Virus record (IMG/VR): IMGVR_UViG_3300037042_003713
Span: 1-47,762 of that record
From: a virus
Reading direction: 5' to 3' (one strand)
DNA: 47,762 nt
This document shows positions 7-26,320 of this stretch, piece by piece. Positions within the stretch are counted from its first letter, which is position 1; every line of letters begins with the position of its first letter. Below the pieces are notes generated by a model. That model made no database searches. It was not told the DNA's origin and saw only the letters and a list, made by a program, of their open reading frames with translations. The translations under genes were made by a program, and so were the position numbers.

Positions 7-615
7 ATGACCGACGCCGGGATGCGCGTCGGCGGCGCGGGCCTCGAGGTGATGCGCGCGGCGAGCGCGGCCGCGTCGGTGCCGCCGCCTCCGCGCGTGC
101 AGCGCACGACCCGCGTGCGGTCGCTCGACGGCGGCGAGGTAGAGCAGCTGGGGACGTGGTCCGATCAGCAGACGTGGCTTGAGACGCTCGCGACGCGCAT
201 CGGAGAGCGCGTCGAGCTCGTGAACATGACCGAGCGCGGCGCGCTCATTCGCGGGTGGATGCGACGCCCGATTATGACGCGCCGTCAGCCGTGGCCGCGC
301 GTGACTCGCCAGGCGGTCGCGCTTGAGCGCGTGCGCGGCGCGGTCGAGGACGTGCGACGTCAGGCCGAGACGGTCGCGAGCATGGCCGACACCGTGCGCG
401 ACGCGGACGGGTGCGTCGTCGCGGTGCCGGGATACCTCGATGGATGCGACATCGTCGAGGCGGTCGCGGCGGGCGACATGATCACGGTGCGCGAGATGGG
501 ATACGCGCCAGGCCCCGGCGTGCGCCTGACGTGCATGGCGCTGTCCGACGCCGCTCGCGCGGTTCGTGACGCGTTGCCGAGCGTGGCAGTTGCCGCGCAT
601 ACTGCGGCATCATGA
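7..615 (+). CDS. hypothetical protein upstream of portal (start may lie outside window)
   Basis: I do not recognise this 202-residue protein. It is rich in Ala, Arg and Val with no clear membrane segment, and has a helical middle part (about residues 100-130). Its stop overlaps the portal start by the ATGA pattern used throughout this phage, so it is translated with the head operon. The frame is open to the left edge of the window, so ATG at 7 may not be the real start. GGACAG at 1-6 is only a weak ribosome site. Its position directly before the portal suggests a head or packaging accessory protein, but this is inference from place only. Confidence 0.6.
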   Translation: MTDAGMRVGGAGLEVMRAASAAASVPPPPRVQRTTRVRSLDGGEVEQLGTWSDQQTWLETLATRIGERVELVNMTERGALIRGWMRRPIMTRRQPWPRVTRQAVALERVRGAVEDVRRQAETVASMADTVRDADGCVVAVPGYLDGCDIVEAVAAGDMITVREMGYAPGPGVRLTCMALSDAARAVRDALPSVAVAAHTAAS

Positions 616-2159
616 GCAAGCTCGGCGCGAACAAGACCCGCGAGAAGACTCGCGCCCTGACCGACGCAAGCGGCGGTGATCTGTCGCCGTTCCAGCGGCT
701 CAGTCCGAAGCCCACGATCTCGCGCTGGTCGCCGAGCGTTGGATACGCGGAACTGACCTGGGGCCAGGTTCAGTCGATCCTGATGAACGCCGAGCGCGGC
801 TACATGGAGACGTGGGGCGATCTGACGCGTCGCATGATCGCGACCGACGATCACATCGCGGCCGTGTACGAGACGCGCGTTGCATCGGTGTCCGGCGCTC
901 GACGCGAGATCAAGCCCGCGTCCGTGCCGGTCGGATACGAGGCCGCGGCCGAGCGCGCGGCCGATGACTGCCGTGCGCTCCTCGACGGTCTGCCGTCGCC
1001 CGAGCGCATGATCGCGAGTCTGCTCGACGCCGACTTCACCGGATACGCCGCGTCGGAAATCATCTGGTCACCTCGCGGCGACATGGTGTGGGCGGACGAT
1101 GTCGTGTGGCTGTCGCCGCGCCGGTTCCGGTTCAGCGATCAGTTCGAGCTCTACCTGTACGACAACGGGATCGGAGCCGCCCGCGCGCGCGAACTCGACA
1201 TTCCCGTCGACGACACGGTCGTCAATGGCGTGCTCGGACTGCCGCTCACGCGGAACAAGTACATCGTGCACATTCCGCAGATCCTGCCGAACTACCCGAC
1301 GTCGAGCGGCCTTCTGCTCGCATGCGTTCGCGCGTGGTGGGTGAAGTCGTGGATCACGAAGTTCTGGTTGAGCGGCGCGGAGGTCGCGGGCAATCCGCGT
1401 CTCGTCGGTCGACTGCCCGATCAGGCCGCATCCGCCGACGTCGCCGACGCGCTCTACCAGGCGCTCAACGACCTGTCGGCTGACGGCGTCGGCGTGCTCA
1501 AGGGCGAGTCGAACATCGAGGTGCTGCGCGTCGAGGCACAGGGCAGCGGCTCCGTGTGGGAGACGCTGATCAAGCGATGCGACGCGGCCATCAGCAAGGC
1601 CGTGCTCGGCTCAACGATCAACGTCGAGGTCGGCGAGGGCGGCGGCAATCGCGCGCTGGCCGAGTCGCAGGGCGACATCACGATCACGCCGCGCCTGCAA
1701 CGGTCGGCGCGCCTCGTGTGCAACACGATCGAGCGCGACTTGTTCGGCCCGTTCCTCGAGTTCAATCGTCATCGATACGGCGGCCTCGTGCCCGTGCCGT
1801 CGATGAACCTGGTCCTGTACGAGGCGCAGGCCGAGATCGACCAGTTGGCCGTCGCGTCCGGCGTCGTGCGCGTCGACGAGCTCCGGCAATCGCGCGGCCT
1901 CGAGCCGCTCGGCGATAACGCGGGCGGCAACGAGATGATCCGTCCGGCCGCGCCCGCGCCTGCCGCGTTCACGGCACCTGTCGCGCCCGTGGCGGCCGGC
2001 ATCGCGGGCGGCTTGGCCGCCGAGTCATCTAACACCGAGTATCGCGCCGTGACCGTGGAGGCGGACGCGGCAGTCCCTTTCAAGACTGCGCCGTGGAGCC
2101 GCGCGCTGACGGCGGCGGTTCGCGCTGGCCTGGCGCGCACGGCGACCTCTGGGCGCTAG
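612..2159 (+). CDS. portal protein, phage Mu gp29-like (DUF935 family)
   Basis: Forms the dodecameric DNA gate at the capsid vertex. Family features seen: RMIATDDHIAAVYETR near residue 75-90, the DADFTGYAASEIIW block (about 135-150), VHIPQ (about 218), a long central part with KAVLGSTINVEVGEGG (about 330-345) and an ERDLFGPFLEFN block. These are the conserved blocks of Mu gp29-type portals. Starts at ATG 612 in an ATGA overlap with the preceding gene. At 515 aa it appears to lack the helical C-terminal domain that usually follows the Pro/Ala-rich linker. A sequence resembling that domain is found instead at the N-terminus of the next, overlapping gene in the -1 frame. The last 26 codons after the CCCTTTC heptamer at 2075 read like a non-conserved tail. 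Confidence 0.9.
   Translation: MSKLGANKTREKTRALTDASGGDLSPFQRLSPKPTISRWSPSVGYAELTWGQVQSILMNAERGYMETWGDLTRRMIATDDHIAAVYETRVASVSGARREIKPASVPVGYEAAAERAADDCRALLDGLPSPERMIASLLDADFTGYAASEIIWSPRGDMVWADDVVWLSPRRFRFSDQFELYLYDNGIGAARARELDIPVDDTVVNGVLGLPLTRNKYIVHIPQILPNYPTSSGLLLACVRAWWVKSWITKFWLSGAEVAGNPRLVGRLPDQAASADVADALYQALNDLSADGVGVLKGESNIEVLRVEAQGSGSVWETLIKRCDAAISKAVLGSTINVEVGEGGGNRALAESQGDITITPRLQRSARLVCNTIERDLFGPFLEFNRHRYGGLVPVPSMNLVLYEAQAEIDQLAVASGVVRVDELRQSRGLEPLGDNAGGNEMIRPAAPAPAAFTAPVAPVAAGIAGGLAAESSNTEYRAVTVEADAAVPFKTAPWSRALTAAVRAGLARTATSGR
2075..2114 (+). promoter_or_regulatory. candidate -1 programmed frameshift site (slippery heptamer plus hairpin)
   Basis: C CCT TTC at 2075-2081 is in the portal reading frame (GTC-CCT-TTC) and fits the X XXY YYZ rule. 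After a -1 slip both tRNAs re-pair as CCC and TTT. Seven bases later CGCCGT (2089-2094) can pair with ACGGCG (2109-2114), with an inner AGC/GCT stem. The shifted frame is open into the minor head protein gene to 3094, giving a product of about 827 aa. Hairpins are common in GC-rich DNA, so the heptamer in frame and the domain content are the stronger evidence. Confidence 0.5.
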
Positions 2160-3094
2160 CCGACGACGACGCACGCGACCAAGCGGTCGCGACCATCGGC
2201 ACGCCGCCGACGCTCATCGCATCGAGTCTGCTCGACGCGATGCCCGACTGGCAGCGATGGCAGGACGAGATCGCGACGACGATCGCGAACAGCACCACGA
2301 TCCAAGACGCGGCCGCGAACCTCGGACTGTGGGCGAAGCGCGCGGCCGAGGACGAGTCAATCGCGGGCGGCATCTACTCGGCCGCGATGCAGGCGGACCT
2401 CGCCGGCCAGCTTTTCGTGCGCCAGGTCGAGGTGCCCGAGTCGATGCCCGAGCGCGCGCTCGCGGACAAGAGCGCGGCCGCGTTCTTCTCGCTGCCGTTC
2501 GACGAGGCCGTGCAGGAGTTCCTCGGCAAGCGCATCGTCACGCCCGAGGAGTTCCGGCGACTGAGCGACGCGGCTCGCACGCGCGCGTTCACGGCGACCT
2601 ACCTCGCGAGCGATGGACTGCGCGAGCACGCGTTCGAACTGCTCGCCAAGGCGCTACAGGAGGGCTCGACGCTGCGAGACTTCGCCGCGCAGCTACAGGC
2701 CGGCGAGGTGTCGCTCGGCGTCACGCCGAGCTCGCCCGCGTACATCGAGACGGTCTATCGAACGAACATCCAGTCGGCGTACGGCGCGGGCCGATACCGT
2801 CAGATCACGAATCCGGTCGTGGTCGCGGCGCGGCCTTACATCGAGTACCGCACCGCGCAGGACTCGCGCGTGCGGCCGAGTCACGCGCTCCTCGACGGCG
2901 TCATCTTCGAGCAGTCCGATCCAACGTGGTCTAGATACGCGCCGCCGAACGGGTACGCGTGCCGCTGTTCGGTTATCACGCTGCGCGCGCGCGACGTTGA
3001 TCGCAGTCGAGTGGTTGCGTCGAGCGACTTGCCCGCTGATACTCTTCCGGATTCAGGGTTTGACACGGCACCGACTGTCACGCTGAATCCATGA
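2093..3094 (+). CDS. minor head protein, phage Mu F-like (SPP1 gp7 family), with portal-like N-terminal domain
   Basis: Head morphogenesis protein that acts with the portal. The C-terminal half is typical of the Mu F family: YRTNIQSAYGAGRYRQ (about 220-235), RPYIEYRTAQDSRVRPSHALL and the YAPPNGYACRCSV cysteine motif near 285-297. The usual F start (FSLPFDEAVQEFLGK) only begins near residue 137. The preceding 100 residues (DLWALADDDARDQ to AMQADLAGQLFVRQ) resemble the C-terminal domain of gp29-type portals. The nominal start GTG 2093 overlaps the portal by 67 bases and has no visible Shine-Dalgarno sequence, unlike most genes here. It may be made by -1 frameshifting from the portal, by translational coupling, or the split may be a sequencing indel. 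Confidence 0.85.
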   Translation: MEPRADGGGSRWPGAHGDLWALADDDARDQAVATIGTPPTLIASSLLDAMPDWQRWQDEIATTIANSTTIQDAAANLGLWAKRAAEDESIAGGIYSAAMQADLAGQLFVRQVEVPESMPERALADKSAAAFFSLPFDEAVQEFLGKRIVTPEEFRRLSDAARTRAFTATYLASDGLREHAFELLAKALQEGSTLRDFAAQLQAGEVSLGVTPSSPAYIETVYRTNIQSAYGAGRYRQITNPVVVAARPYIEYRTAQDSRVRPSHALLDGVIFEQSDPTWSRYAPPNGYACRCSVITLRARDVDRSRVVASSDLPADTLPDSGFDTAPTVTLNP

Positions 3095-4518
3095 CCATGG
3101 ACGCATACGCACTCTACTCCGGCCACGATCGCCTGTTCGCGCTGCGTGCGCTCGTCGGCCTGACCGGCGAGGGCGCACAGGCGCGCACGGGCTGGATCCA
3201 CGTCGCGCCCGAGGGTTCGTGGGAAGGTCATCCGGACGGCGCGTTCACGCTGACGCGCGCCGGATTTGAGTCTTGCATCTACGACGCCGAGCGACGCGCG
3301 ACGCCGCAGTCGGTCGACTACGAGCACGCGAGTCTGTACCCGACGGGCGAGCCGACGCCGGCCGCCGGTTACGTGCAGAAGCTCGAGCAGCGCGCGGACG
3401 GCCTGTGGGCTCTCGTCGAGTTCACCGAGCGCGCGGCGTCGATGATTCGCGCGGGCGAGTATCGGTTCTGCTCGGGCGTGTTCGCCTTCGAGCGGCGCGA
3501 CCGTCAGACCGGCGACGTGATCCCGTGCATGCTCGACAGCATCGCGCTGACGAACCGGCCGTTCATCGACGGCCAGGAGCCGATCGCGCTCTCGCAGAAT
3601 GCACGGGCGGCGACTGTCGTCGCCCTCAACGGAGGACGACAGGACATGAACATGATCAAGCGCGAGGCGCTGATGGCGGCGCTCGACTCGCTGGACGGTA
3701 CTGAGTTCGCACCCGAGCAGCTGCACGCGCTCGTCGAGGGCGTTGCCGCGCTCGAGGCCGCGAAGAATCCCGAGATGGCCGAGCACGCGGTCGAGGTCGA
3801 GGGCGAAGGCGAAGGCATGGCCGATCTCAAGTGCGGTCCCGGCTACAAGGCCAGCGAGGCCGCGCTCGCCGCGCCCGCGCCGTCGGCTCCGATGGCCGAG
3901 GCTGTGCCGCCAATGATCGGCGAGCCCGCGCCCGCCATCGACCAGGGCGCGCAGGACGCGGCCGAGATGATCATGGGCAAGCTCACTAGCGCGACCGGCA
4001 TGGACGCGGCCGCGATCATGGCCGCGCTCGACCAGAACCTCGACGCGGTGCTCGCGGCGCTCATGGGCGCGGCGGCTCCGAGCGCGGCCGACACGGCATC
4101 GAGCCTGTCGGTGCGTCTGCTCTCGCAGCAGCTGGGCGCGGTCAAGGAGCGCCTCGCCGGCTACGAGAAGGCCGAGCGCGCCGCCGCCGATCGTGCGCTC
4201 GACCTCGAGGTCGACGCGCTCGTGCAGGACGGCCGCATCCTGCCCGCGTCGCGCGAGCAGTGGCGCACGCTGGCGCGCACCGCGCGCGACCAGTTCCGCG
4301 CGCTGTCGGCGACGCTTCCGCGCGTCGTGCCGATGGGCCGCGAGGCGACCGCGACCGCGACCGCGTCGAGCAACGCGACCGCGCTCGGCGACACCATCCT
4401 CGACATGACTGACCCTCGCGTCGTCGCGCTGACCGCGGCGATGGACCGGGCCGGCGTGCAGGACTCGAAGATTCGCGCGACTCGCATCCGCGAGGCGCTC
4501 GGCAAGCGCGCCGGTTGA
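3091..4518 (+). CDS. prohead protease/scaffold, phage Mu I-like
   Basis: Matures the prohead. Residues about 1-170 match Mu I-like proteases: TGWIHVAPEGSWEGHPDGAF, VDYEHASLYPTGEPTPAAGY, a YRFCSGVFAFERR block and SIALTNRPFIDGQEPIAL. The rest is Ala/Glu-rich and helical (GEGEGMADL, then long Ala/Met and Arg/Glu stretches to the end), as expected of the scaffold part that in Mu is also made separately as gene Z from an internal start. A possible internal start is ATG 3646, which follows GGAGGACGACAGGAC and gives MNMIKREALMAALDS, so a separate scaffold may be made here too. Starts at ATG 3091 in an ATGA overlap with the minor head gene. Confidence 0.88.
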   Translation: MTMDAYALYSGHDRLFALRALVGLTGEGAQARTGWIHVAPEGSWEGHPDGAFTLTRAGFESCIYDAERRATPQSVDYEHASLYPTGEPTPAAGYVQKLEQRADGLWALVEFTERAASMIRAGEYRFCSGVFAFERRDRQTGDVIPCMLDSIALTNRPFIDGQEPIALSQNARAATVVALNGGRQDMNMIKREALMAALDSLDGTEFAPEQLHALVEGVAALEAAKNPEMAEHAVEVEGEGEGMADLKCGPGYKASEAALAAPAPSAPMAEAVPPMIGEPAPAIDQGAQDAAEMIMGKLTSATGMDAAAIMAALDQNLDAVLAALMGAAAPSAADTASSLSVRLLSQQLGAVKERLAGYEKAERAAADRALDLEVDALVQDGRILPASREQWRTLARTARDQFRALSATLPRVVPMGREATATATASSNATALGDTILDMTDPRVVALTAAMDRAGVQDSKIRATRIREALGKRAG

Positions 4519-5063: not shown

Positions 5064-6023
5064 ATGTCCGGAATCATTGCGGGTGGATTGGCTCAGTCGG
5101 CGGCGAACACCGCCTATCTGGCGAAGGGCGACGAGATCTTCCAGCGGCCGCCCGTCGGCGCGTGGGCGCTCTTCTCCGACGTCGTGCCGTGCGAGGGACA
5201 GTTCCTCGAGCTCGACACCATCGGCCCCTCGCCGATCGTGCGCGAGCTCGTCGGCAGCCGTCGCTTCGGCGCGCTCCGCGCGTACGCGAAGCGCACTCGC
5301 GTCGCCCCGTACTCGACCGACGCGCTCGAGCTCTCGCGCCTCCAGGTCGAGAAGGACGTCAACGGCTCGGTCACGCGCCGCCTGAACGACTACCTCTCGG
5401 CGAGCGCGAACTTCTGGGACAAGGCCACGACCGACGCGCTCCTCGCGAACCCGGTCGGGATCGACGGCGTCGCGCTCATCTCCTCGTCGCACCCGTACGG
5501 GTTCGGCGCGAACTGGTCGAACAACGCGGGCGCGGCTCTCTCGCCCTCGACGTTCGCGAGCGGGATCTCCGCGATGAGCGGCCTTCAGCTTGAGAACGGC
5601 GAGCCCGCCGGATTCTATCCGACGCACCTGATGGTCGGCCCCGCGCTCGAGAAGATGGCGCGCGACTTGTGCACGAACCCGCTGCGCCCGTTCCCGGTGT
5701 CGGCGTCCGGTGTCGAGGCGTACTCGACGGTCGTGGCCGCGACCGCGATCCAGAACGGCTGGTTCCAGGGTTCGATCGAGGTCGTCGTCAACAAGCGCAT
5801 GGTCGGCAGCAACGCGAACGGCTGGCTCCTGATGGACCTGTCGCGCCCCGGCGTGCGTCCGATGATCGTCGGCGAGGCGATGGCCCCGCGCGCGGTCGTC
5901 GTGGACGATCCCGGCTCGGAGCCGATGCTCCAGCGGTCCAACTACGCGTACTACGTCGAGGGCTACGCCGCGATCAGCGGCTACGCGCCGCACTGCATCT
6001 ACGGCACCATGACCGGCAGCTGA
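5064..6023 (+). CDS. major capsid protein, phage Mu T-like
   Basis: Main shell protein, 319 aa. It matches the Mu gpT-type major head subunit family: the ELVGSRRFGALRAYAKR region, YSTDALELSRLQVEKDVNG, the HPYGFGANWSNNAG block (about 151-164), PTHLMVGPALEKMARDL, and near the end VEGYAAISGYAPHCIYG. It follows the decoration-like gene after a 36-base gap. The start ATG 5064 is preceded by AAGAAAGGCAATCAGAC, a weaker ribosome site than that of gene 4545. A 65-base gap with an inverted repeat follows. The family assignment is from recognised blocks; the T=number and structure cannot be seen here. Confidence 0.9.
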   Translation: MSGIIAGGLAQSAANTAYLAKGDEIFQRPPVGAWALFSDVVPCEGQFLELDTIGPSPIVRELVGSRRFGALRAYAKRTRVAPYSTDALELSRLQVEKDVNGSVTRRLNDYLSASANFWDKATTDALLANPVGIDGVALISSSHPYGFGANWSNNAGAALSPSTFASGISAMSGLQLENGEPAGFYPTHLMVGPALEKMARDLCTNPLRPFPVSASGVEAYSTVVAATAIQNGWFQGSIEVVVNKRMVGSNANGWLLMDLSRPGVRPMIVGEAMAPRAVVVDDPGSEPMLQRSNYAYYVEGYAAISGYAPHCIYGTMTGS

Positions 6024-7598: not shown

Positions 7599-8024
7599 AT
7601 GGCCGACAATACGACGCTCAATCCAGGCACCGGCGGCGACGTGATCTCGACTGACGATCTCGGCGCGGTGAAGGTCCAGCGCGTCAAGGTCCAGGTCGGC
7701 GTCGACGGCGCGGCCGCGGACGTGAACGTCGGCAACGCGATGCCGGTGCGCACGGTCGCGTCGAGCTCGTCGGTCAACGCCGTCTCGACCAGCGGCACGT
7801 CGGCGACGCTTGCGAGCGCGAGCAGCGGGCGGCTGCGGATCGTCATCGTCAACGATTCGAGCGCGACCCTCTACGTCAAGTACGGCACGACCGCGTCGGC
7901 CGCCGACTGGACCATCAAGCTCGCGCCCGACTCGACGCTCGACGAGGACGCATACACCGGACGCATCGACGCGGTCCTGTCGACGGGCACGGGCACGGCG
8001 CGCGTGACGGAGTTGTCCGCGTGA
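7599..8024 (+). CDS. hypothetical virion protein, beta-rich
   Basis: 141 aa. The opening MADNTTLNPGTGGDVISTDD followed by a VQRVKVQVG strand is a phrase met in many phage structural proteins of unknown role. The rest is Thr/Ser/Ala-rich beta sequence with LRIVIVNDSSATLYVKYGT and RIDAVLSTGTGTARVTEL, which looks like a small jelly-roll or beta sandwich and resembles adapter domains in front of fibres. Its stop overlaps the start of the long repeat protein (GTGA), which supports a joint role, possibly as an attachment or chaperone protein for it. Confidence 0.65.
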   Translation: MADNTTLNPGTGGDVISTDDLGAVKVQRVKVQVGVDGAAADVNVGNAMPVRTVASSSSVNAVSTSGTSATLASASSGRLRIVIVNDSSATLYVKYGTTASAADWTIKLAPDSTLDEDAYTGRIDAVLSTGTGTARVTELSA

Positions 8025-10858
8025 CCCGCATCTTCTCGACGGCCATCGCGCAGATCAGCGCGGGGACGACCGCGGCGGCCGCGACGAACGTCGTGCTGTC
8101 GAACGCGAACGGCGTGTCGTTCGGCGCGAACGGCGCGACGATCACGGCAAGCGTCGCGGCCGCAACGCAGTCGACCGCGCCTGGCGCGTTCGCCGCGGGC
8201 ACGGTCACGATCACGAGCGGCACGGTCGTGCTGTCGAACGGCGGCGGCGTCTCGTTCGGCGCGAATGGGCAGACCGTCACGGGCAGCGTAGGAGCGGGCG
8301 CAACGGCCACTGGCAATCTCGGAGGGCTCGCGGTAGGGGCCTCGACGCTGACGAGCGGCACGGCCGTCCTGAGCGCCTCTAACGGGCTCTCTTTCGGCTT
8401 CAACGGCGCGACGATCACCGGCAGCTACTCGCAGTCGACCGCGCCGAGCGGCATCGCGGGCGCGGGCGTAACGGCGACGTCCGGCACCGTCCTGTTCTCG
8501 AGCGCGAACGGCGTCAGCTTCGGCCTGAACGGGCAGACGATGACGGCGTCGGTCGGCGCGGGCGCGACCGCGACCGGCAACGTCGGCGCGCTCGCCGGCG
8601 GCACGCAGACCGCGACATCTGGAACGATCGCGTTCAGCGACTCCAATGGCGTGTCCTTCGGCCTTTCGGGCTCGACCAGGATGACGGCATCGGTCGCGGC
8701 AGGCGCGACCGCCACGGGCAATCTGGGCGCGATCGTCGTCGGCACGGTCACGCAGTCGAGCGGGACCGTTGTGTTCTCGAACTCAAACGGCGTCACGTTT
8801 GGGATGAACGGCGGCACGATCACCGCGTCGGCATCGGGCGGCGGCGCGGCTGACGGCGGGATCTTCGCGAGCGCGGCGGGCTCGAGCGTCACGGCTGGGA
8901 CGGTCGTGTGGTCGAACTCTAATAACGTCAGCTTCGGCATGAACGGCTCGACGATCACGGCGAGCGCGAGCGCGTCGCAGTCGACCGCGCCGAGCGGCAT
9001 CGCGGCGGCGGGCGGCACCGCGACCAGCGGGACCGTGCTCTGGTCGAACGCGAACAACGTCTCGTTCGGGTTCAACGCGAACACGATCACGGCGTCGGCG
9101 TCGTACTCGCAGAGCACGGCACCTAGCGCGCTCGTGGCGGGCACGCAGACCGCGGCATCAGGCTCGGTGTCGTTCGCCGATTCCAACGGCGTCACGTTCG
9201 GCATGAGCGGCTCCTCGCGCATCACCGCGAGCGTCGCGGCCGGTGCGACGGCGACGGGCAATCTCGGCGCGTTCGCGGCGGGCACGGTCACGCAAACGAG
9301 CGGCACCGTGCTCGCGAGCAACGCGAACGGCGTGAGCTTCGGACTCAACGCGGGCACGCTGACGGGTTCGGTCGCGGCCGGTGCAACGGCGACCGGCAAC
9401 CTCGGCGGAATCGCCGCGAACGGCGCGACCGCGACGAGCGGCACCGTGATCTTCAGCGCGAGCAACGGCCTCGCGTTCGGCCTGAACGCCGGGACGATCA
9501 CCGCGAGCTACACGCAGTCGACCGCACCCGCCGCGATCAGCGCGGGCACCGCGAGCGTGGGCGCGGGAACGGTCGTGTTCAGCAACTCGGCGAACGTGAG
9601 CTTCGGCCTCAACGGCTCGACCGTGACCGCGAGCGCGAGCTACTCGCAGTCGACCGCGCCCGGTGCGATTGCGGCCGGGACGCAGACGGCCACGAGCGGA
9701 ACGATCGCGTTCAGCGATTCGAACGGCGTGTCGTTCGGACTGAGCGGCTCGACCAGGTTGACCGCAAGCGTCGCGGCAGGAGCGACCGCGACCGGGAACT
9801 TCGGCGCGATTGCGGCCGGGACGCAGACGCAGACCTCGGGCACGGTCATCTGGTCGAACAGCAACGGCGTCTCGTTCGGACTGAACGCGGGCACGTTGAC
9901 CGCGTCGGTCAACGCGGGCGGCGGCGGCGGCGTTGCGGTCAGCGCGGGCACCGCGAGTCAGAGCACCGGCACGGTGATCTTCAGCAACTCTAACGGGATC
10001 ACGTTCGGCCTGAACGCGGGCACGTTGACCGCGAGCGCGGCGGCGGGTCCGGCCGCGGGCATCGCGGCGGTGAGCGGCGGCACGACGCTCGCGACCTCGG
10101 GCACGCTCGTGTTCAGCAACGCGAACGGCGTGTCGTTCGGGATCGACGGCAACACGATCACCGCCTCGACGGCGATGGACACGTCGCCCTTCTACGACAA
10201 CCTCGACTTCGGCGCGACGAACAGCGCGGGCATCGGCGTGTTCGCGTTTACGAACTCGCATCGGTCGCTGTTCCTCGGGCCGCTCGACGGGAATCACATC
10301 GAGTTCCCCGACAACATCACCGCGTCGACGATGCACCTGAACTTGTCGCTGTCCGGCTCGACCGCGACCGCGTCGGCCGCGTTCACGTCGCGCTTCTATC
10401 TCGGGATCTACACCGAGAACGGCACGCAGTTGTCGCTGCTCAACAGCGTGCAGGCGAGCTTCGGGTTCGCCGCGGCGGCGACGAACAACTCGACCGGATT
10501 TGCGGGCGTGCGATTCCTGCCGATCGCGTCGTCGGCGTGGTCCTCGTCGCCCGTGTTCAGGGCGGGCGATCGCTACCATCTCGGATGGTTCTGGTCGTCG
10601 TCCGGCGGCACGGTGAATCAGACCGGCCAGTTGCTCGGATTCGGCCGGTACTCGTCCGGTCAGCGCAGCGGGTCAATCGGCGTCAGTCAGGTCACGGCCA
10701 CATCGGTCGGATACGCGCCGTTCTATGGCGTGTACACCGCGACCACCTCCGCGCTTCCGGTGAGCATCGCGAACTCGCAGCTGAACAAGCAGGCCGGCAC
10801 GGCCGCGTTCGTGCCGCACGTTCAGATCATCGCGGCGACGAACTACTCGGTGTTCTGA
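8021..10858 (+). CDS. long repetitive fibre-like protein with about 16 beta repeats
   Basis: 945 aa. Residues about 20-716 consist of about 16 modules of 42-47 residues. Each has a core like SNGVSFGLNGSTITAS, preceded by SGTVVFSN, and linkers of two types (QSTAPGAIAAGTQTAT or AGATATGNLGAIAAGT). Such alternating short strands suggest a beta-solenoid or stacked-strand shaft. The last 230 residues (from DTSPFYDNLDFGATNS on) are non-repetitive, contain many aromatic residues (RYHLGWFWSSS) and probably form a receptor-binding or trimerisation head. GTG start overlaps the preceding stop. It is encoded early in the structural block, before the tail genes, so it could be a head or neck fibre as well as a tail fibre. 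Confidence 0.75.
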   Translation: MTRIFSTAIAQISAGTTAAAATNVVLSNANGVSFGANGATITASVAAATQSTAPGAFAAGTVTITSGTVVLSNGGGVSFGANGQTVTGSVGAGATATGNLGGLAVGASTLTSGTAVLSASNGLSFGFNGATITGSYSQSTAPSGIAGAGVTATSGTVLFSSANGVSFGLNGQTMTASVGAGATATGNVGALAGGTQTATSGTIAFSDSNGVSFGLSGSTRMTASVAAGATATGNLGAIVVGTVTQSSGTVVFSNSNGVTFGMNGGTITASASGGGAADGGIFASAAGSSVTAGTVVWSNSNNVSFGMNGSTITASASASQSTAPSGIAAAGGTATSGTVLWSNANNVSFGFNANTITASASYSQSTAPSALVAGTQTAASGSVSFADSNGVTFGMSGSSRITASVAAGATATGNLGAFAAGTVTQTSGTVLASNANGVSFGLNAGTLTGSVAAGATATGNLGGIAANGATATSGTVIFSASNGLAFGLNAGTITASYTQSTAPAAISAGTASVGAGTVVFSNSANVSFGLNGSTVTASASYSQSTAPGAIAAGTQTATSGTIAFSDSNGVSFGLSGSTRLTASVAAGATATGNFGAIAAGTQTQTSGTVIWSNSNGVSFGLNAGTLTASVNAGGGGGVAVSAGTASQSTGTVIFSNSNGITFGLNAGTLTASAAAGPAAGIAAVSGGTTLATSGTLVFSNANGVSFGIDGNTITASTAMDTSPFYDNLDFGATNSAGIGVFAFTNSHRSLFLGPLDGNHIEFPDNITASTMHLNLSLSGSTATASAAFTSRFYLGIYTENGTQLSLLNSVQASFGFAAAATNNSTGFAGVRFLPIASSAWSSSPVFRAGDRYHLGWFWSSSGGTVNQTGQLLGFGRYSSGQRSGSIGVSQVTATSVGYAPFYGVYTATTSALPVSIANSQLNKQAGTAAFVPHVQIIAATNYSVF
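8081..10170 (+). repeat. about 16 tandem protein-coding repeats (42-47 codons each)
   Basis: DNA repeats underlying the fibre protein. Recurrent blocks include GCGACCGCGACCGGCAA-type linkers and GGCGTGTCGTTCGG-type cores. The long open minus-strand frames here (8425-9501 and 9158-10579) are by-products of this repetitive GC-rich composition. Confidence 0.8.
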
Positions 10859-13300: not shown

Positions 13301-14545
13301 ATGACGATCGAGGTCCATTCAGTACAGCGCCTCCGCGTGTGGTCGGAGTCGTCGTTCGCAACCGACGGCACCGGCACGCTCAACAACTACACCGACGTGC
13401 CCGTGCGAGAGGGCACCGGCACCATGACGCTGACGCTCGACTCGCTCGACCCGATGCAGCAAGTGCAGTCGCGCGTCGAGTACCGCGAGGAGGTGCTCGG
13501 CAAGCGGTCTGCGACGCTTCAGTTCACGCTGAATCTCGCGCCGACGGGTACCGCCGCGGCGTCGGGCATCGCGGCCGTGCAGGGCGCGTTGGGCCTGCTG
13601 CTCAAGGCGACGTACGGCGGCGAGACGCTCGGTACCGGGACGACGTTCACGGGCGGCACGGCGACGATCCCGACCGTCACGAGCGCGGCCGGGTTCCTTG
13701 CGGGCGGCGCGATCGGATGGTCGAACGCGAGCGGCGTGCTCGAGGTGCGCGAGATCGAGTCGATCGCCGGCAACTCGATCACGCTCAAGCACGCGTTCAG
13801 CGCGGCTCCGACGAACGCGCAGGTGGCCTATGCGGCCGCTACGTACTCGTTCACCGAGGACCCGCAGGAGTCGTTGCAGTTCATCGTCGAGGGCGTCGAG
13901 GCTCAAGATCGATGGGTGCTGCTCGGCGGCCAAGCCGTCGGCGGCGTGACGGTCGCGATCGACCCGAGCGGCGCGGCCCTGCCGTCGATCCAGTTCTCGA
14001 TGACGTTCGCGAACTGGCTCGACTCGACCGAATGCGCGGGTTCGATCACCGGCACGATCGGGAACGCGACGTACAGCAACTACTCACCGATCGTCGGTCA
14101 GGCCGGCGAGCTCCGCGCGTTCGTCGTGGGCGCGTCGACGCTGACGACCTCGAGCATCGTGCACTGCTCGGCGCTCGCGTTCTCGCCCAAGGTCGTGTTT
14201 GTCCCGGTCACGTCACCGAGCGGCACGAACACGATCTACCGTTGGCGCGCGGGCCGCGCGATGCCGCCGGTCGAGGGTTCGTTCACGACGTTCTTCCAGG
14301 ATTACACCTGGTGGTCCGCGCGCGCGGCGAAGAGCGACTACGACATCGCGTATCAGATGGGTCAGGCCGCGGGCAGCACGGTCGTGATCACCGCGCCGAC
14401 GGTTCAGATCGTGAATCCGCAGCGCGTCGCCGACGGGAACCAACTCGCCGGCCAGGCCGTCGCGTTCAAGGGCCGTCGAGACACGGACACGGGCGCGAGC
14501 ACGACCGCGCTCGCCAAGTCGCCGACTCGCATCCACCTCGTGTGA
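13301..14545 (+). CDS. putative major tail tube protein
   Basis: 414 aa, strongly beta-rich (SATLQFTLNLAPTG, FTEDPQESLQFIVEGVEA, IQFSMTFANWL). It lies between the terminator-like gene and the chaperone/tape measure region, where siphoviruses encode the tail tube. GAGGTGATGAC before ATG 13301 is a fair ribosome site. It is longer than the usual 200-300 aa tube protein, which could mean an added surface domain. It has no sheath-like neighbour, so the tail is likely non-contractile. Confidence 0.6.
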   Translation: MTIEVHSVQRLRVWSESSFATDGTGTLNNYTDVPVREGTGTMTLTLDSLDPMQQVQSRVEYREEVLGKRSATLQFTLNLAPTGTAAASGIAAVQGALGLLLKATYGGETLGTGTTFTGGTATIPTVTSAAGFLAGGAIGWSNASGVLEVREIESIAGNSITLKHAFSAAPTNAQVAYAAATYSFTEDPQESLQFIVEGVEAQDRWVLLGGQAVGGVTVAIDPSGAALPSIQFSMTFANWLDSTECAGSITGTIGNATYSNYSPIVGQAGELRAFVVGASTLTTSSIVHCSALAFSPKVVFVPVTSPSGTNTIYRWRAGRAMPPVEGSFTTFFQDYTWWSARAAKSDYDIAYQMGQAAGSTVVITAPTVQIVNPQRVADGNQLAGQAVAFKGRRDTDTGASTTALAKSPTRIHLV

Positions 14546-14557
14546 TGCGTCCGCGGT

Positions 14558-14586
14558 GAGCCGGTGTGCATGAACGGCACCGGCTC
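14558..14586. repeat. 9-bp inverted repeat around the start of the tail chaperone gene
   Basis: GAGCCGGTG (14558-14566) and CACCGGCTC (14578-14586) flank an 11-base loop containing ATG 14570, followed by ATTTCAGG. It may end transcription of the abundant tube message partly, or hide the ATG in the loop. If so, GTG 14594 would be the alternative start. Confidence 0.45.
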
Positions 14587-15127
14587 ATTTCAGGTGATTC
14601 GGGTCTATGACCCGGCCATCGACTACGACGCGATCCCGCAGCAAGACTGGGACGCGTTCATCTCGAACCGCGACGTGTCGCTGCTCGGCGAGCATTGGAT
14701 CGAGGGCCGTCGCCCGGTCGTGTTCCACTGTCGACCGCTGACGCAGTCCGAGCGGCGCGACGTGCGCGGCAAGGCCGACGCGGACAAGGCCGAGCGCGCG
14801 TTCGCGTTCGCCGTGCAGCGCGTCGATCACCTGCCGACGCACGACGGCGGACGCATCTCGTGGATGCGGCCGAGCGACGGCGGCAAGCCGCGCGCGCTCG
14901 CGGACGACGCGCTCGAGCGGTTCGCCGAGGAGGACATCACGCACGTAGGACTGGTGATCATCGCCTCCAGTTTCTCAGCCCCCGACAGGCAGCTGTATGT
15001 GCCGCTGCAGGATACCTGTCGGGGCGCCCTGACCGCAGTGGCAGTCGAGTATCGCCGCCGCCCTGTGGCGCAGACGGTTCCATCGTCGAGCTCGGACGAA
15101 AGCAACGCGCCGCCCAAGGCACCCTGA
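14570..15127 (+). CDS. putative tail assembly chaperone, N-terminal reading frame
   Basis: 185 aa from ATG 14570 (other in-frame starts: GTG 14564, GTG 14594, the last giving MIRVYDPAIDYDAIPQQ). Contains CRPLTQSERRDVRGKADADK and an acidic helix ending near FAEEDITHVGLVIIA; the tail is Pro/Ser-rich (TVPSSSSDESNAPPKAP). Gene order (tube, this gene, overlapping second frame, tape measure) is that of the lambda G/T chaperones, which bind the tape measure protein. A CCC-AAG stretch precedes the stop, but I see no perfect X XXY YYZ heptamer. Confidence 0.6.
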   Translation: MNGTGSFQVIRVYDPAIDYDAIPQQDWDAFISNRDVSLLGEHWIEGRRPVVFHCRPLTQSERRDVRGKADADKAERAFAFAVQRVDHLPTHDGGRISWMRPSDGGKPRALADDALERFAEEDITHVGLVIIASSFSAPDRQLYVPLQDTCRGALTAVAVEYRRRPVAQTVPSSSSDESNAPPKAP

Positions 15128-15489
15128 GCCGCGACAAGGCCGCGCTCGCTCGATTGCGGGCGGCGTGGCGGTGCGACTGTTCGGGTGCGCCTGCGGCCGT
15201 CACAGGTGCCACAACGGAGCAACGCGCGGTCGAGTCGATGCGCGAGGCGATGGAGCGCATCACCGGACATCGGCCGGTGTCGTGTCCGTGGCGCGCGTAC
15301 TACGACCCGCTCGTGCGCGAGGTGATGGCGCTGTCGTGGGCGGTCGATGACGGCAATCTCGCGGCGGCGACTGGCGACGATCCGCCGGCCATCCTGCTCG
15401 ACGCGGTGGGCATGTACCGTCAGTCGCTAAGTGCTACTCTCGCCGAGGATCGGCGTCTGGCCGAGGAGGAGCGCAAGTCGCGTGGCTGA
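15124..15489 (+). CDS. putative tail chaperone second frame (-1 relative to upstream gene)
   Basis: This region holds no other gene and its frame (-1 to the preceding one) encodes a plausible protein with a conserved-looking PVSCPWRAYYDPLVREVMAL block and an acidic helical end (ATLAEDRRLAEEERKSRG). Small proteins with a CPW...DP motif are commonly found just before the tape measure gene. The start is unsure. It could be joined to the upstream gene by frameshifting (the span given begins at the CTG that overlaps the upstream stop), or begin at TTG 15154 or ATG 15238 (83 aa). Its stop overlaps the tape measure start. Confidence 0.55.
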   Translation: MSRDKAALARLRAAWRCDCSGAPAAVTGATTEQRAVESMREAMERITGHRPVSCPWRAYYDPLVREVMALSWAVDDGNLAAATGDDPPAILLDAVGMYRQSLSATLAEDRRLAEEERKSRG

Positions 15490-17011
15490 ACCGATCAGGA
15501 TCGCAGTCGAGTTCACCGGCACCGACGACGCGGTCCGCGGGACCACGCGCGTCAGCGACGGCCTCGAGAACATGTCCGATCGGTCGTCGGCCGCGGCGCG
15601 CGCGACCGAGCAGCTGGCCGCGCGTCAGACCGCGGCGGCGACGGCCGCGATCGCATTCGGCCAGCGAGTGGCGGCGGCCGGCGCGGCCGTTCAAGGGCTG
15701 ATGTCCGCGCTCGGCGTCGAGGGCCAGGCGGCCGGCCTCATCGGCAAGATCACGCAGACCTCGACCGCGATGGCGCAGCTGGGCGCGACGCTCGGCCCGC
15801 AAGGTGCGCTCGTCGGCGGCATTCTCGGCGCGGCCGTGCCGGCGATGGTCGAGCTATTCAACGCCACCGAGCGGCAAGCGGAGGCCGCGCGCGATGCGGC
15901 CCGAGCGGCCGAGGAGGAGCGCGTCGCGCAGGAGGCGTTGACCGATCGCATCCTCTCGCAGTTCGCCGCCCGTCGTCAGGTGCAGTCGTTGATGCGAGGC
16001 GAGGGATACGCGTCTCCAGAGTCGGCGAGACAGGCCGCCGCATCGGCCGCGACGACGATCTCCGATCTCGAAGGGATGGTCGAGCGCATCCGTAGGACCG
16101 GAGAGCAGCTTGGCGTCGACACGTCCGAGCGCGTCAGGGCGCTCGAGGACCGCATCGCGCGCGAGCGCGGACTACTCGCAGGAGCGACGCAAGCGGAGGA
16201 GCGTCTCGTGTCGGCCGCCGAGGTCGCGCCGGCACGCCGAGGAGGCGGCGGACGTCGTCGCGCCGAGACGCCGCAGGCCGCGGCCGTCGACGAGGGCGAC
16301 GCGATGGCCGTCGTGCGCGACATCATCGGCGAGCAGAACGCCGCGCTCGCCGAGCAGCTCGAACTCATGGAGGCGTTGAACCGGCAGAAGGCCGAGGCGC
16401 AGGACAAGGACGCGAGCATCGCCGCCGCGCGCGCCGAGCAGCACGAGGCCGAGCTCGAGCGTCAGACCGAACTCAAGGACTCGTTGATCGAGTCCGCCGA
16501 CAAGCAGCGCGAGGTCGCGGACCGTCAGCGTCAGGAATACATGGGCGTCACGAGCGTGATCGCGGGCGGTCTGAACGACGCGCTTCAAGCGATCATCGCG
16601 GGCAACAAGACGGCCGAGGAGGCGTTCACGGGACTGCTCGCGTCGTTCCTCAAGTACATCAGCGAGCAGAGCATGCTGAAGGCGATCTACGAGTACGCCG
16701 AGGCGATCGCGAGCTTCGCCTCGTACAAGTACGACCAGGGCGCGCAGCACCTCGCCGCGGGCATCGCGTACACGGCCGTCGCCGTTGCGGCCGGCGCGGG
16801 CGCGGCGGCGCTGTCTGCGCCTAGCGCGAAGGGGGCGAGCGAGGAGAAGCCCGCCTCGCCCGAGTCCGGCCGCGGTGACGGCGGCGGCGGCGGCGGCGAC
16901 ATCGTGATCAACTGGAACTCGCCGGTCGTCACGGCCGGCACGCGCGCGGAGCTCGGCCGCGATATGGCCGGGATGATCCGCGCCGGCACTCAACGATACG
17001 GGACGGTGTAA
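15482..17011 (+). CDS. tape measure protein
   Basis: 509 aa from GTG 15482 (GAGGAGGAG about ten bases upstream). Mostly helical and Ala-rich: hydrophobic central helices (GALVGGILGAAVPAMVELF, about 113-131), long coiled-coil stretches (about 135-160 and 290-350), then a TM-like segment AAGIAYTAVAVAAGAGAAAL (about 422-441) and a Gly-rich linker with a beta end (DIVINWNSPVV). This is the usual layout of a tape measure protein that sets tail length. By the usual ratio of about 0.15 nm per residue the tail would be about 75 nm, rather short. GTG at 15431 is also in frame but lacks a ribosome site. Confidence 0.8.
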   Translation: MAEPIRIAVEFTGTDDAVRGTTRVSDGLENMSDRSSAAARATEQLAARQTAAATAAIAFGQRVAAAGAAVQGLMSALGVEGQAAGLIGKITQTSTAMAQLGATLGPQGALVGGILGAAVPAMVELFNATERQAEAARDAARAAEEERVAQEALTDRILSQFAARRQVQSLMRGEGYASPESARQAAASAATTISDLEGMVERIRRTGEQLGVDTSERVRALEDRIARERGLLAGATQAEERLVSAAEVAPARRGGGGRRRAETPQAAAVDEGDAMAVVRDIIGEQNAALAEQLELMEALNRQKAEAQDKDASIAAARAEQHEAELERQTELKDSLIESADKQREVADRQRQEYMGVTSVIAGGLNDALQAIIAGNKTAEEAFTGLLASFLKYISEQSMLKAIYEYAEAIASFASYKYDQGAQHLAAGIAYTAVAVAAGAGAAALSAPSAKGASEEKPASPESGRGDGGGGGGDIVINWNSPVVTAGTRAELGRDMAGMIRAGTQRYGTV

Positions 17012-17014
17012 GCG

Positions 17015-17779
17015 ATGGCGACGTATTACCTCGCAGGATGGGACACGGCCGCGATCGGGACGTTCAGCGTCGTTGTCGGCGGCGCCGTCGGCAGCGGCAC
17101 GGCGACGGTCGCGGCCGACACGTACGCGCACACGGACCTTTCGGCGGTCATGGGCGCGGGCGAGTACACCGCGTTCGCGGCGGCCGTGCAGACCGCGTTG
17201 AACGCCGTCGCCGTGGGATGGACGGTCAGCTACTCGACGACGACGCACGAGTACACGATCGCGAACGCGACCGCGTTCACGCTCACCTGGACGGGCGACG
17301 CGGGCAAGAACCTTCAACGCGCGCTCGGGTTCGCCGCGAACGTCGGAAGCTCGACGACGACCACGAGCACGGTGCGGCCGTATTACGTGATCGTCCCGGC
17401 CATCACCGCGCGCTCGCAGGTGTCGGACGTGTACGAGCCCGACGACATCGTCAAGGAGGCCGTGTCCGACGGCGGCTCGAGCTTCGCGATTTCAAAGGAC
17501 ACGGTCGAGACGTGGAGCGATTGGGAGCAGCAGATGGAGAGCGCGTCCGCGACGCTCGCGCGCTCGGCCGTCGCGGCCGTCCCGTGGACCTGGGAGGCGT
17601 TTTTCAAGCACCTTCGAGGCGCGTACCCGTTCCGCCTCGTCGACGGCTCCACGAGCACCGTGCACACGCTGCGCGAGAAGGGCGCGGTTTTCAGCGGCTC
17701 GACGCGCCGCCGCGTCGCGGTCGACTACGACGACCTGTGGATCATCATGCTGATGACGCGTGATCTGGGGACCGTATGA
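17015..17779 (+). CDS. tail protein downstream of tape measure (distal tail-like)
   Basis: 254 aa. Beta-rich N-terminal part with many Thr/Ala/Val (GTFSVVVGGAVGSGTATVAA), a central AITARSQVSDVYEPDDIV stretch and a C-terminal part (WTWEAFFKHLRGAYPFRLVD, TRRRVAVDYDDLWIIMLM). First gene after the tape measure, where distal tail proteins that start the baseplate are encoded. No family signature recognised, so the role is inferred from position. Overlaps the next gene by ATGA. Confidence 0.55.
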   Translation: MATYYLAGWDTAAIGTFSVVVGGAVGSGTATVAADTYAHTDLSAVMGAGEYTAFAAAVQTALNAVAVGWTVSYSTTTHEYTIANATAFTLTWTGDAGKNLQRALGFAANVGSSTTTTSTVRPYYVIVPAITARSQVSDVYEPDDIVKEAVSDGGSSFAISKDTVETWSDWEQQMESASATLARSAVAAVPWTWEAFFKHLRGAYPFRLVDGSTSTVHTLREKGAVFSGSTRRRVAVDYDDLWIIMLMTRDLGTV

Positions 17780-20466
17780 CGTTCGCCCGCGTCTACGGCA
17801 CCGGCTCCGGTGCGCTGCGGTTCCGGCTCTCGATCGAGGGTCTTCCGGTCGAGTTCGTCACGAGCTCGAGCATGGCAACGACTGCGGCCGATGGACGGCG
17901 TCGCGTGGTCGGACTGAGCGTAGAAGGATTGAAGATCAGTCAGCGCGCCGACCTGGTGCGCGCGACCATCGAGGCGCAGGGAGTCAGCGTCAAGATCGCC
18001 GACGTCGCGGGCGAGGCGACGTCACTGTTCGCCAAGCGTCCGAGCGCCACGTCGTGGCTGTCCGACGCGGAGACGAGCACGACCGCGTCGATCCGAGTCA
18101 AGAGTACGGCCAACTTCGCATCGTCCGGATATATCCACGTCAATACCGAGGCGATCGCGTACACCGGCAAGACGAGCACGAGCTTCACCGGATGCACGCG
18201 CGGGCGATGGGACACGCTCGGCCAAGCGCACTACGTGCCCGACGGCGGGCAGCTGCGATTCCCAGAGGTCACGAGCGCGCCCGTCGTTTTCGAGGGCCGT
18301 CGTGCTCGCCTGTACATCTACGGCGCGGGAGACAGCGCGACAGGAGATGGAACGCAGGTCTTCCTCGGTATCGTGTCGGGCGAGCCGAGGATGCGCGGAC
18401 CGTCGTGGTCACTGAGCATGGATCCGATCTCGCGCATTCTTGCGCAGGAGTTCGGTGCGGACCTTGCCGAGCCGGTCACACCTCGCGGGATCTACTACCC
18501 CGGCGGCGATGGGTTCTGGTCGCTGCGCATTGGCATCGTCGGAGGAGCCGGCGGTACGCTGCTCGACACGTTCGGCCAAGTTCAGATCACGTTCCCGACG
18601 GCGTCCAAGGCGTTCTTCGAGACGCAGCAAGACTTCATCAACGAGATCAACGTCCAACTGACCGCGGCGTTGACCTCGTACAACGTCGACATTGAGTGCC
18701 GTCCGGCACCTGACGGCGGGTATTACTTCGCGATCGTTCAGAACAGCCCGGTCGATAGCGTCGGCATGCGGCTCGACACGCCTCGATTCGATTACTTTTT
18801 CCCAACCAACATCTTCTCGGCGAGCGAATCCGGCCCTCCTCTGACGGCCATCGACACGGTGTCTTCGTTCTCGTCGAATACGACCTATTACTGGTTCCCG
18901 ACGCCAAGCGAGACGAAGCTGCCTGGATGCGGGCTCGTGCCTCGAGGTCGCTTCAACTTCCGCATGTCGGAGACGCTGCCTCCGGAGTTCGCGTCAATCC
19001 AGTCGACGTTTCCTCCGCGCCGCGTCTACCTTGGAGGCGCGGTCGCGCTTCCATCGAACACGAGCGCGGTGCTCATCAACTGGAGCGACCCGGGCGGGCA
19101 GACGTCGCGCAACTACTCGGTCGGATCGCTCGACACGGCCAAGCGCGCGGTCGAGCTCCTGCGCGACTTCGGCGGATACAGGCTTACCGACGAGCACGAC
19201 TACACGCCGTCGAACCTGCCGCAGATCAGACTCGGCCGGTCGTTCACCAGCTACGGCGCGAGCAATATCGCGACGTTCCTGTCGACGCTCGCAAGCGGCA
19301 GCGCGGACGGCGTCAACAACGGTGCGCAGCCGATGGTCCGAACAACCGGCGGACCCGTCGCCGCGCCAGGCGATGTCGATCTCACGACGTGGTCGACTGA
19401 GATCGCGGCGTCCGATTCCAATCTCGTCGAGGGCCGCAGTTACAACAGTTTCGGCGCGATCTCGATTCAGGATATGGTCGCGCCAGAGCTACAGCTTGCC
19501 GGCCTCTATCTCGCGTTCGATTCGTTCGGCCGCATCATCCCCAAGCGGCTTCGGCTCGGAGCCGCGACCGAGCTCGGTACGTTTGCGATCACGAAGGCGA
19601 ACCTGCTCACGGATGACGGGTTCCCTCAGTACGAGCGCAGCGCGATCGGCAAATTCTCGACGCTTACGGTGCGTGATGGATACGACCCGATCGAGGACGA
19701 CTACACGCTGCCAAGCGTGACCGTGCGAGACGTCGCGGCGTTCGGGCAGACGCCGAACAGTCGCACGGTCACCATCGAACCCAAGAGCCGCTACGTGACC
19801 GGCGCGGCGATTCCCATGGACGCGGTCGTTCGATGCGCCTCGACGGTGCTCGGCATCTTTGGCGGACCGTACGCGTACATCACGATGTCGGTCCCGATCA
19901 CCGGGTACTACCTGGCCGAGCTTGGATCGACCGTGTCGATCTCGACCAAGCAGCTGCCCGACGTCATCACCGGCACGCGCGGCGTGACGTCGCTGCTCGG
20001 CGTGGTGACCTCGCGAGACGTCGACTTCTATGCCGCCCGCATCGAGATCACCGTGCTCGTCTCGCTCGCGAACATCGCCGGGTATGCGCCGAGTTCGAAG
20101 GTGTCGAGTCAGACGAACACGAGCGGCAACACCTGGGCGATCGTCCTGTCGTCGTCGTACTTTGCGGCGGGCGAGACGGCGGCCGATCACTTCGTCGCGG
20201 GAGACGTCGTGCGCGTGTTCCAGTACGACACCGCATCGTCGACCGAGATCGAAGGCACGGTCGTGTCGGCGAGCTCGTACACGGTCGCCGTGACGTTCAT
20301 ATCAACCTGGACGCCGAGCACGCTTGAATGGGTGCTTGGGTTCAGCAAGAGCACGGCCGTCGCGACGGGCTCTCGACAGCTGTCCTACGCGTTCGACGCT
20401 GGTCCGGCGGCCACATACGCGGACGCGTCGTCCGTGGCATATCCGGCGAGGGAGTTCGCACCATGA
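17776..20466 (+). CDS. tail hub/baseplate protein
   Basis: 896 aa. Residues about 110-155 contain NFASSGYIHVNTEAIAYTGK and SFTGCTRGRWDTLG, a segment I recognise from phage hub or tip proteins. The rest is beta-rich with repeated FxxLxIxxS-type strands, without a peptidase or lysozyme motif. Its large size and place right after the distal tail-like gene suggest it forms the central hub or tail tip to which fibres attach. ATG 17776 overlaps the previous stop (ATGA) and the next gene overlaps its end the same way. Confidence 0.65.
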   Translation: MTFARVYGTGSGALRFRLSIEGLPVEFVTSSSMATTAADGRRRVVGLSVEGLKISQRADLVRATIEAQGVSVKIADVAGEATSLFAKRPSATSWLSDAETSTTASIRVKSTANFASSGYIHVNTEAIAYTGKTSTSFTGCTRGRWDTLGQAHYVPDGGQLRFPEVTSAPVVFEGRRARLYIYGAGDSATGDGTQVFLGIVSGEPRMRGPSWSLSMDPISRILAQEFGADLAEPVTPRGIYYPGGDGFWSLRIGIVGGAGGTLLDTFGQVQITFPTASKAFFETQQDFINEINVQLTAALTSYNVDIECRPAPDGGYYFAIVQNSPVDSVGMRLDTPRFDYFFPTNIFSASESGPPLTAIDTVSSFSSNTTYYWFPTPSETKLPGCGLVPRGRFNFRMSETLPPEFASIQSTFPPRRVYLGGAVALPSNTSAVLINWSDPGGQTSRNYSVGSLDTAKRAVELLRDFGGYRLTDEHDYTPSNLPQIRLGRSFTSYGASNIATFLSTLASGSADGVNNGAQPMVRTTGGPVAAPGDVDLTTWSTEIAASDSNLVEGRSYNSFGAISIQDMVAPELQLAGLYLAFDSFGRIIPKRLRLGAATELGTFAITKANLLTDDGFPQYERSAIGKFSTLTVRDGYDPIEDDYTLPSVTVRDVAAFGQTPNSRTVTIEPKSRYVTGAAIPMDAVVRCASTVLGIFGGPYAYITMSVPITGYYLAELGSTVSISTKQLPDVITGTRGVTSLLGVVTSRDVDFYAARIEITVLVSLANIAGYAPSSKVSSQTNTSGNTWAIVLSSSYFAAGETAADHFVAGDVVRVFQYDTASSTEIEGTVVSASSYTVAVTFISTWTPSTLEWVLGFSKSTAVATGSRQLSYAFDAGPAATYADASSVAYPAREFAP

Positions 20467-21149
20467 GCACAAGCCCTCTCGGCGGTCGGCTTTTGACAGA
20501 CACCACGCTGTTCCAAGGCGGCAACGATCCGGTCGACACCGTGATCGTGCGTGATGTGGTGCTGAACAACCTCTGTCACTACGCCGACGAGTTCGCCCAG
20601 GTTCGCGTGAACTGGTCGGCCGGACAGACCGCATACACGAACGGCAGCGGGTACTTGACGACGCGCACGACCGGCCTGACCACGTCGCCGTGGTTCTACA
20701 TTGCGTCATTCGGGCCGTTCCCGATCACGCTTCGTCAGACGACAGGCATCGGAGGCGCGAGCTACCGTCTACGCGTGAGGCTCGCCGGGTCATCAAGCGC
20801 CGGTGCGGCTGTCACGTTCCGAGCGGTTGTCGCCTCATACTCGTCCGGTCAATCGTCGGTCACAGGCGCGCTCGACGATCACATCTTCGAGGCGACGACC
20901 TCGAGCACGACGATGGGATGGCTAACCGGCACGAGCCAAGGCGTGAACGCGTGGACGACGCAGGTTGTTCTGCCGAGCTCGTACGTCGGCCCGTGGATGG
21001 TTCCCGTTGGAACTCTGACCGACCTTGGAGGCGATCCGGCGGCGGTGACGCAGTGCCTTGTGTCGCTGCACGTCTTTGCGAACACGGCCAACGCGACCAG
21101 CGTGCCGCGGCTTGGAGCCGTGTATGCGGCGGAATGGATCGGTGACTGA
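20463..21149 (+). CDS. tail-associated structural protein
   Basis: 228 aa, start ATG 20463 in an ATGA overlap (the frame is open upstream, but that part lies in the hub gene). Thr/Ser/Gly-rich beta protein with WFYIASFGPFPITLRQT and YRLRVRLAGSSSAGAAVTF; aromatic and Gly residues are evenly spread, as in tip or fibre domains. It ends AVYAAEWIGD and is coupled by TGATG to the next gene. No enzymatic motif. Probably part of the tail tip. Confidence 0.55.
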   Translation: MSTSPLGGRLLTDTTLFQGGNDPVDTVIVRDVVLNNLCHYADEFAQVRVNWSAGQTAYTNGSGYLTTRTTGLTTSPWFYIASFGPFPITLRQTTGIGGASYRLRVRLAGSSSAGAAVTFRAVVASYSSGQSSVTGALDDHIFEATTSSTTMGWLTGTSQGVNAWTTQVVLPSSYVGPWMVPVGTLTDLGGDPAAVTQCLVSLHVFANTANATSVPRLGAVYAAEWIGD

Positions 21150-22162: not shown

Positions 22163-22174
22163 AGGAGAGCAGTC

Positions 22175-22468
22175 ATGGTCGGAGCAGACGTCAAGATCTA
22201 CGGCCCCGGAGCCGGCACATCGGTCGCGTTCAGCGGCACCTCGACCGCCGCGCAAGACCTCGGCGACCAGACGCAGAAGGTCATGATCACCGTGACCGGC
22301 ACGGCGCGCATCCGCTTCGGCGATGCGAACGTCGGCGCGGCCGTCAGCACCGACCAGGCGCTCTACGCGTCGCAGAACTACGTGTTCGACGTCAGTCCAG
22401 GCACGCGGTACTTCCGCGTGATTCAGGACGCCGCGTCGGGCACGCTCATCTGGGCGAAGGTCGCCTGA
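22175..22468 (+). CDS. small beta-rich virion protein
   Basis: 97 aa. About eight short strands (VAFSGTSTAAQDLGDQTQKV, ARIRFGDANVGA, YVFDVSPGTRYFRVIQ, GTLIWAKVA) suggest a compact beta barrel or sandwich. Strong ribosome site AAGGAG (22163-22168) six bases before ATG, so it is expressed independently and probably at a high level. It may be a fibre adapter or a small tail decoration protein; the immediate neighbour is the tail spike. Confidence 0.58.
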   Translation: MVGADVKIYGPGAGTSVAFSGTSTAAQDLGDQTQKVMITVTGTARIRFGDANVGAAVSTDQALYASQNYVFDVSPGTRYFRVIQDAASGTLIWAKVA

Positions 22469-22469
22469 C

Positions 22470-24344: not shown

Positions 24345-24351
24345 GGATCAC

Positions 24352-26311: not shown

Positions 26312-26320
26312 GGAGTTCGC

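Follow-up and report, generated by a model that had tools for sequence, protein, structure and literature searches.

The window, meaning the whole stretch of DNA that was analysed, is a 47.8-kb IMG/VR virus record that carries a Mu-like head module of portal, Mu-F, Mu-like protease and gpT-like capsid genes. Portal and Mu-F do not form one uninterrupted ORF, as the portal frame is closed by a TAG at 2157-2159 and the F frame has a stop at 2030-2032, and the question that this locus raises is how Mu-F is expressed. A sequence-only reading had proposed a programmed -1 ribosomal frameshift that joins the two proteins. We put the probability of this explanation, for the window and for its relatives, at roughly 90%. 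The features concerned are the following.

Positions 612-2159, plus strand: Mu-type (gp29-like) portal gene, 515 aa in frame 0.
Positions 2057-2061, plus strand: GGAGG, a putative stimulator resembling a Shine-Dalgarno sequence; the heptamer follows after 13 nt.
Positions 2075-2081, plus strand: slippery heptamer C CCT TTC (X XXY YYZ) in the portal frame, conserved in every family member.
Positions 2075-3094, plus strand: ORF in the -1 frame, encoding a linker, a portal-type C-terminal helical domain and a Mu-F domain (from translation and PF04233).
Positions 2082-2159, plus strand: dual-coding stretch, holding the frame-0 portal tail and the beginning of the -1 frame.
Positions 2089-2144, plus strand: predicted stem-loops after the heptamer, indistinguishable from shuffled sequence.
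Positions 2093-2095, plus strand: nominal F start, GTG, without a ribosome site (ATG in the close relative L002, absent in other relatives).
Positions 3091-4518: Mu-like protease.
Positions 5064-6023: gpT-like capsid.

The portal ORF matched PF06074 (E 2.4e-55) over profile positions 2-329 of 336, that is, over the whole core, which lies at 819-1880; phrog_113 also matched this ORF. The -1 ORF comprises the C-terminal helical domain at about 2141-2431 and, at 2639-2977, a whole Mu-F domain (PF04233, E 3.4e-21, profile 6-112 of 112). The heptamer was located in the phase that had been described for it. From CCC TTT the -1 frame, previously given as open for about 337 codons, runs for 339 codons to 3094, or 337 residues past the shared Pro-Phe, and reads PFQDCAVEPR... 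onwards. The predicted frameshifted product has 827 residues.

Several other parts of the window and of a related locus were inspected. The 945-aa ORF at 8021-10858 contains imperfect repeats of the type 'SNxNGVSFGxNGxTxTAS', with a 132-138 nt period in part; it had no match in a Pfam search and probably encodes a fibre-like protein of the tail or head. Large ORFs, each of 337 to 896 aa, follow one another across 13301-29991, where a tail module is expected, and the six of them that were tested had no Pfam match at E 0.001. A Prim-Pol gene (bifunctional primase/polymerase N-terminal, PF09250, E 8e-25) lies at 39030-40178; such a replication gene is not typical of Mu itself. Upstream of the portal, L002:3559-5004 (its end corresponds to window 7-615) has a VGSGPSL motif and resembles proteins of the DUF115 type by eye only.

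Distant relatives of the window were obtained by alignment-based searches (L011, L012/L013/L121, L091-L099, L102, L197 and L213), and the family reaches down to approximately 31% portal identity. In every family member CCCTTT[A/C/T] was found in portal phase, inside the overlap and with F in the -1 frame. L002, with 88% portal identity, is identical to the window in heptamer, portal stop and -1 relation. The distant relatives include L197, from a Myxococcales MAG, and L213, from a single 10,327,335-base contig of the same phylum; Mu-like protease and gpT genes come next in L213, which identifies it as a Mu-like prophage head module. In the portal tree 13 rows formed one clade (SH-aLRT 99), all with the heptamer and mostly with terminal branches of 0.4-0.9 changes per site, while L098 (CCCTTTA) sat on a long branch outside this clade in an unsupported placement. 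The frame-0 tail past the heptamer measured 66-195 nt, and neither its length nor its sequence was kept among relatives. As the clade is deeply diverged and the tail unconserved, the heptamer is under constraint of its own.

The heptamer was also rare elsewhere in the same portal genes, where in-phase XXXYYYZ occurred at 7 of 6146 sites and CCCTTT at 2 of 6146. When codons were permuted, the probability of a productive heptamer within the overlap was 0.02 for the window and approximately 0.04 as a per-locus mean (approximately 0.009 for CCCTTT), figures that should not be multiplied naively across loci because the sequences are related. Of the loci that overlap in the -1 frame, 16/18 without a nearby F start had a heptamer in the correct phase, versus 10/30 with such a start (Fisher p 2.4e-4), and each control phase gave 4/18 in the loci without a nearby start. 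At the nucleotide level, the window and L002 are not exceptionally conserved near the heptamer, with equally high values in 18% of windows, and no argument was drawn from this. The motif C_CC.U_UU.C supports high-level -1 frameshifting in E. coli (PMC4066793).

A GGAGG sequence that the earlier reading had missed lies 7-18 nt 5' of the heptamer; it was present in 13 of the 14 distinct loci, L098 being the exception, and also in L213 (12 nt). By comparison, 1.35% of the 30-nt windows taken from these genes hold GGAGG. It occurs in two different codon phases among the loci, which argues for selection at the nucleotide level. No ATG, GTG, TTG or CTG in the F frame was found 4-14 nt past GGAGG in any family member, so this sequence is not the ribosome site of F. 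Shine-Dalgarno-like sequences 6-17 nt 5' of a slippery motif have been shown to stimulate frameshifting in E. coli (PMC4066793). From its position and conservation, we take GGAGG to be a conserved stimulatory element, like the internal Shine-Dalgarno of dnaX.

Substitution patterns between close pairs of relatives indicated which frame is in use on either side of the site. Between the window and L002, 79 of 118 substitutions in 2160-3094 fell at F third positions. For L012 and L094, upstream substitutions were at portal third positions in 49/77 cases and downstream ones at F third positions in 39/50. The dual-coding stretch itself showed mixed substitution phases. By this comparative evidence, the coding frame switches from portal to F across the heptamer site.

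If F were translated independently, either starting at GTG 2093 or through coupled re-initiation at the portal stop, the heptamer would be incidental. Canonical relatives, L027 and L029 among them, as a rule have coupled starts, and the window GTG occupies the same place as the L002 ATG, at +18 from the heptamer; in these two loci only, weak independent F initiation is possible. We nevertheless judged this explanation improbable. The F frame is open from 2033 only, its first start codon is 2093, and, as had been pointed out before, no Shine-Dalgarno precedes that codon. Nor is the start conserved: L092 has a GTG at +30, and the first F start past the heptamer was at +141 in L093, +168 in L095, +234 in L197, +273 in L011, +306 in L091 and +471 in L213, in all of the latter loci inside or beyond conserved domain sequence, so that several relatives have no start ahead of the conserved domain. 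A conserved start methionine, which the sequence-only reading had named as a finding that would refute it, was sought in the relatives and was absent. Independent initiation also leaves the conservation of the heptamer and of a GGAGG without a following F-frame start unexplained.

Two further explanations place the event outside translation. In-frame portal-F fusions occur in relatives, and such a gene could in principle have been split, either by an error of one base in sequencing or by a recent frameshift mutation; we consider this extremely improbable, as the same -1 layout and heptamer recur in independent contigs at portal identities down to approximately 31% and in a finished chromosome (L213), the frame-0 stop positions vary, and in-frame fusion was found in none of the clade members. 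Sequencing error, previously named as the main alternative, is excluded by the -1 arrangement that the window shares with its relatives. Transcriptional slippage, in which RNA polymerase stuttering would give mixed mRNAs, is plausible for loci with 8-10 A (L014, L018, L038, L040, L088, L154 and L214), but it is highly improbable as an account of the window: CCCTTTC has runs of at most three, GGAGG implicates the ribosome, and the process is inapplicable to the window's clade. Programmed frameshifting is instead supported because its signals, namely the heptamer, the frame relation and GGAGG, persist throughout, or almost throughout, a deep clade whose neighbouring sequence has diverged.

A downstream hairpin had been offered as part of the signal. 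It does begin 7 nt after the heptamer, with a predicted energy of -37 kcal/mol over 64 nt, but its z-score lay between +0.3 and -1.2 depending on length when compared with shuffles. Folding of 22 loci at three lengths gave no consistent excess of stability over shuffles in the CCCTTT clade, the stems differed between relatives, and clear stems were seen only in L193 and L194. The hairpin therefore lacks support as a stimulator and carries no weight here. Rfam had no match in region 1900-2400 of the window. A downstream hairpin or pseudoknot is optional for -1 frameshifting in bacteria; with downstream structure no better than chance, frameshift efficiency could be modest.

The first part of the F frame had been likened to the missing C-terminal domain of gp29-type portals. 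Direct profile comparison of the window F N-terminus with canonical portal C-termini was weak (E 0.003), and the likeness holds through intermediates: F N-termini of the window family matched those of relatives with A runs (profile comparison, E 2.3e-7), which in turn matched canonical Mu-type portal C-termini (hhalign E 1.5e-8). AlphaFold predicted a confident helical domain before Mu-F at residues 23-119 of the -1 product (helices 31-119, mean pLDDT 86.9). Foldseek found no match in the PDB, and its BFVD matches were Mu-F proteins, including the 881-aa HSTV-1 portal. In canonical relatives this domain closes the portal gene and F starts at its own ATG. Judged from these comparisons, the 515-residue frame-0 portal of the window has a complete core and is missing the canonical Mu-type C-terminal domain, which is reached only via the -1 frame. 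In L124, a sister of the frameshift locus L018, the gene for this domain plus Mu-F seems to start with GTG, a layout suggesting that the domain can also be expressed with F alone; a small gene (L124:3723-3992) lies between it and the portal.

Other Mu-like loci differed at the same junction. Runs of 8-10 A were present in L014, L018, L038, L088, L154 and L214, with L040/L041 doubtful. L193 has GGGAAAG, preceded at exactly 10 nt by GGAGG, and a stem of z -4.4, and L194 has TTTTTTC and a stem of z -2.5. Portal and Mu-F form a single ORF in L020, L028, L068, L085, L089, L140, L143, L155, L159, L217, L219 and L223, and L137, L138, L139, L145 and L192 were classed as having separate portal and F genes. 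Five candidates, L057 (CCCTTTT), L127, L134 (AAATTTG), L175 and L019, were not taken as frameshift loci, since each has a start codon at its portal stop and ordinary coupling is thus possible. On the portal tree, a quick tree with some long branches, the frameshift label required 7 changes, at least 5 of these forced by strongly supported branches, when L040/L041 were counted as frameshift loci despite their start codon at the portal stop. The Mu-F genes that would be reached by frameshifting in L193 (2807-4150) and L194 (3602-4939) have C-termini that match CdiA_C weakly, below Pfam's cut-off; in these loci a toxin-like domain may ride in on the portal by the same means.

Under the proposed mechanism, the majority of ribosomes would read the portal to TAG 2157 and release a 515-residue short portal. 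A minority, with tRNA-Pro in the P site and tRNA-Phe in the A site at C CCU UUC, would slip by -1 onto CCC UUU, aided by pairing of GGAGG with the anti-Shine-Dalgarno of 16S rRNA, and yield the 827-residue fusion of portal, C-terminal domain and Mu-F. The fusion shares the portal core and would thus enter the portal ring, and frameshift efficiency would therefore set the number of Mu-F copies held at the portal inside the procapsid. We infer slippage in vivo, its efficiency, ring incorporation and the dosage role from the arrangement described above. The chances are about even that frameshift efficiency breaks the twelve-fold symmetry of the ring and that this solution arose several times independently with different slippery sites. 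If so, translation alone would produce a mixed ring in which one to a few subunits bear Mu-F. The few copies of internal proteins at the portal vertex are usually ascribed to binding, and a genetically fixed portal:Mu-F ratio would be a direct, testable alternative. Gene callers would also be miscutting the portal and F genes in all such phages.

Phage proteins with known frameshifting are tail chaperones, the major capsid protein and the tail tube protein. In open-access literature on frameshifting with portal, minor head protein, MuF or DUF935, no report joined portal and Mu-F; the PRFect paper mentions MuF-like only beside a toxin fusion. The tail assembly chaperones gpG/gpGT resemble the arrangement proposed for the window, in that a conserved -1 frameshift within a structural operon of a phage gives two products in a fixed ratio, but they are other genes, beside the tape measure, with another purpose. 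Identity with gpG/gpGT was ruled out, as the genes concerned in the window encode portal and Mu-F, with Mu-like protease and gpT coming next. The E. coli dnaX signal likewise combines X XXY YYZ with a Shine-Dalgarno inside the gene, approximately 10 nt upstream. It differs in using A AAA AAG, a demonstrated hairpin and a shortened product, whereas the window has CCCUUUN, no supported hairpin and a predicted extension by a whole second gene.

Closer in outcome are the capsids of T7/T3 (gene 10), phage A2 and PSA, in which a minority of a ring or shell protein is extended at the C-terminus and is built into the virion. There the major capsid protein acquires a short or Ig-like domain, whereas in the window it is the portal that would acquire the internal protein Mu-F. 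In-frame portal-Mu-F fusions (L020, L068, HSTV-1) have core, linking domain and Mu-F in the same order as the predicted window product and carry Mu-F on every portal subunit, whereas in the window only frameshifted subunits would do so. Mu gp29/gpF and SPP1 gp6/gp7 are homologous portal and Mu-F pairs with separate genes and starts and non-covalent association. In SPP1, binding to gp6 brings a few copies of gp7, the Mu-F homologue, into the procapsid (PMC6316719). By analogy, a few fusion subunits per twelve-membered ring would mimic the dosage of SPP1 gp7, with the link made covalently.
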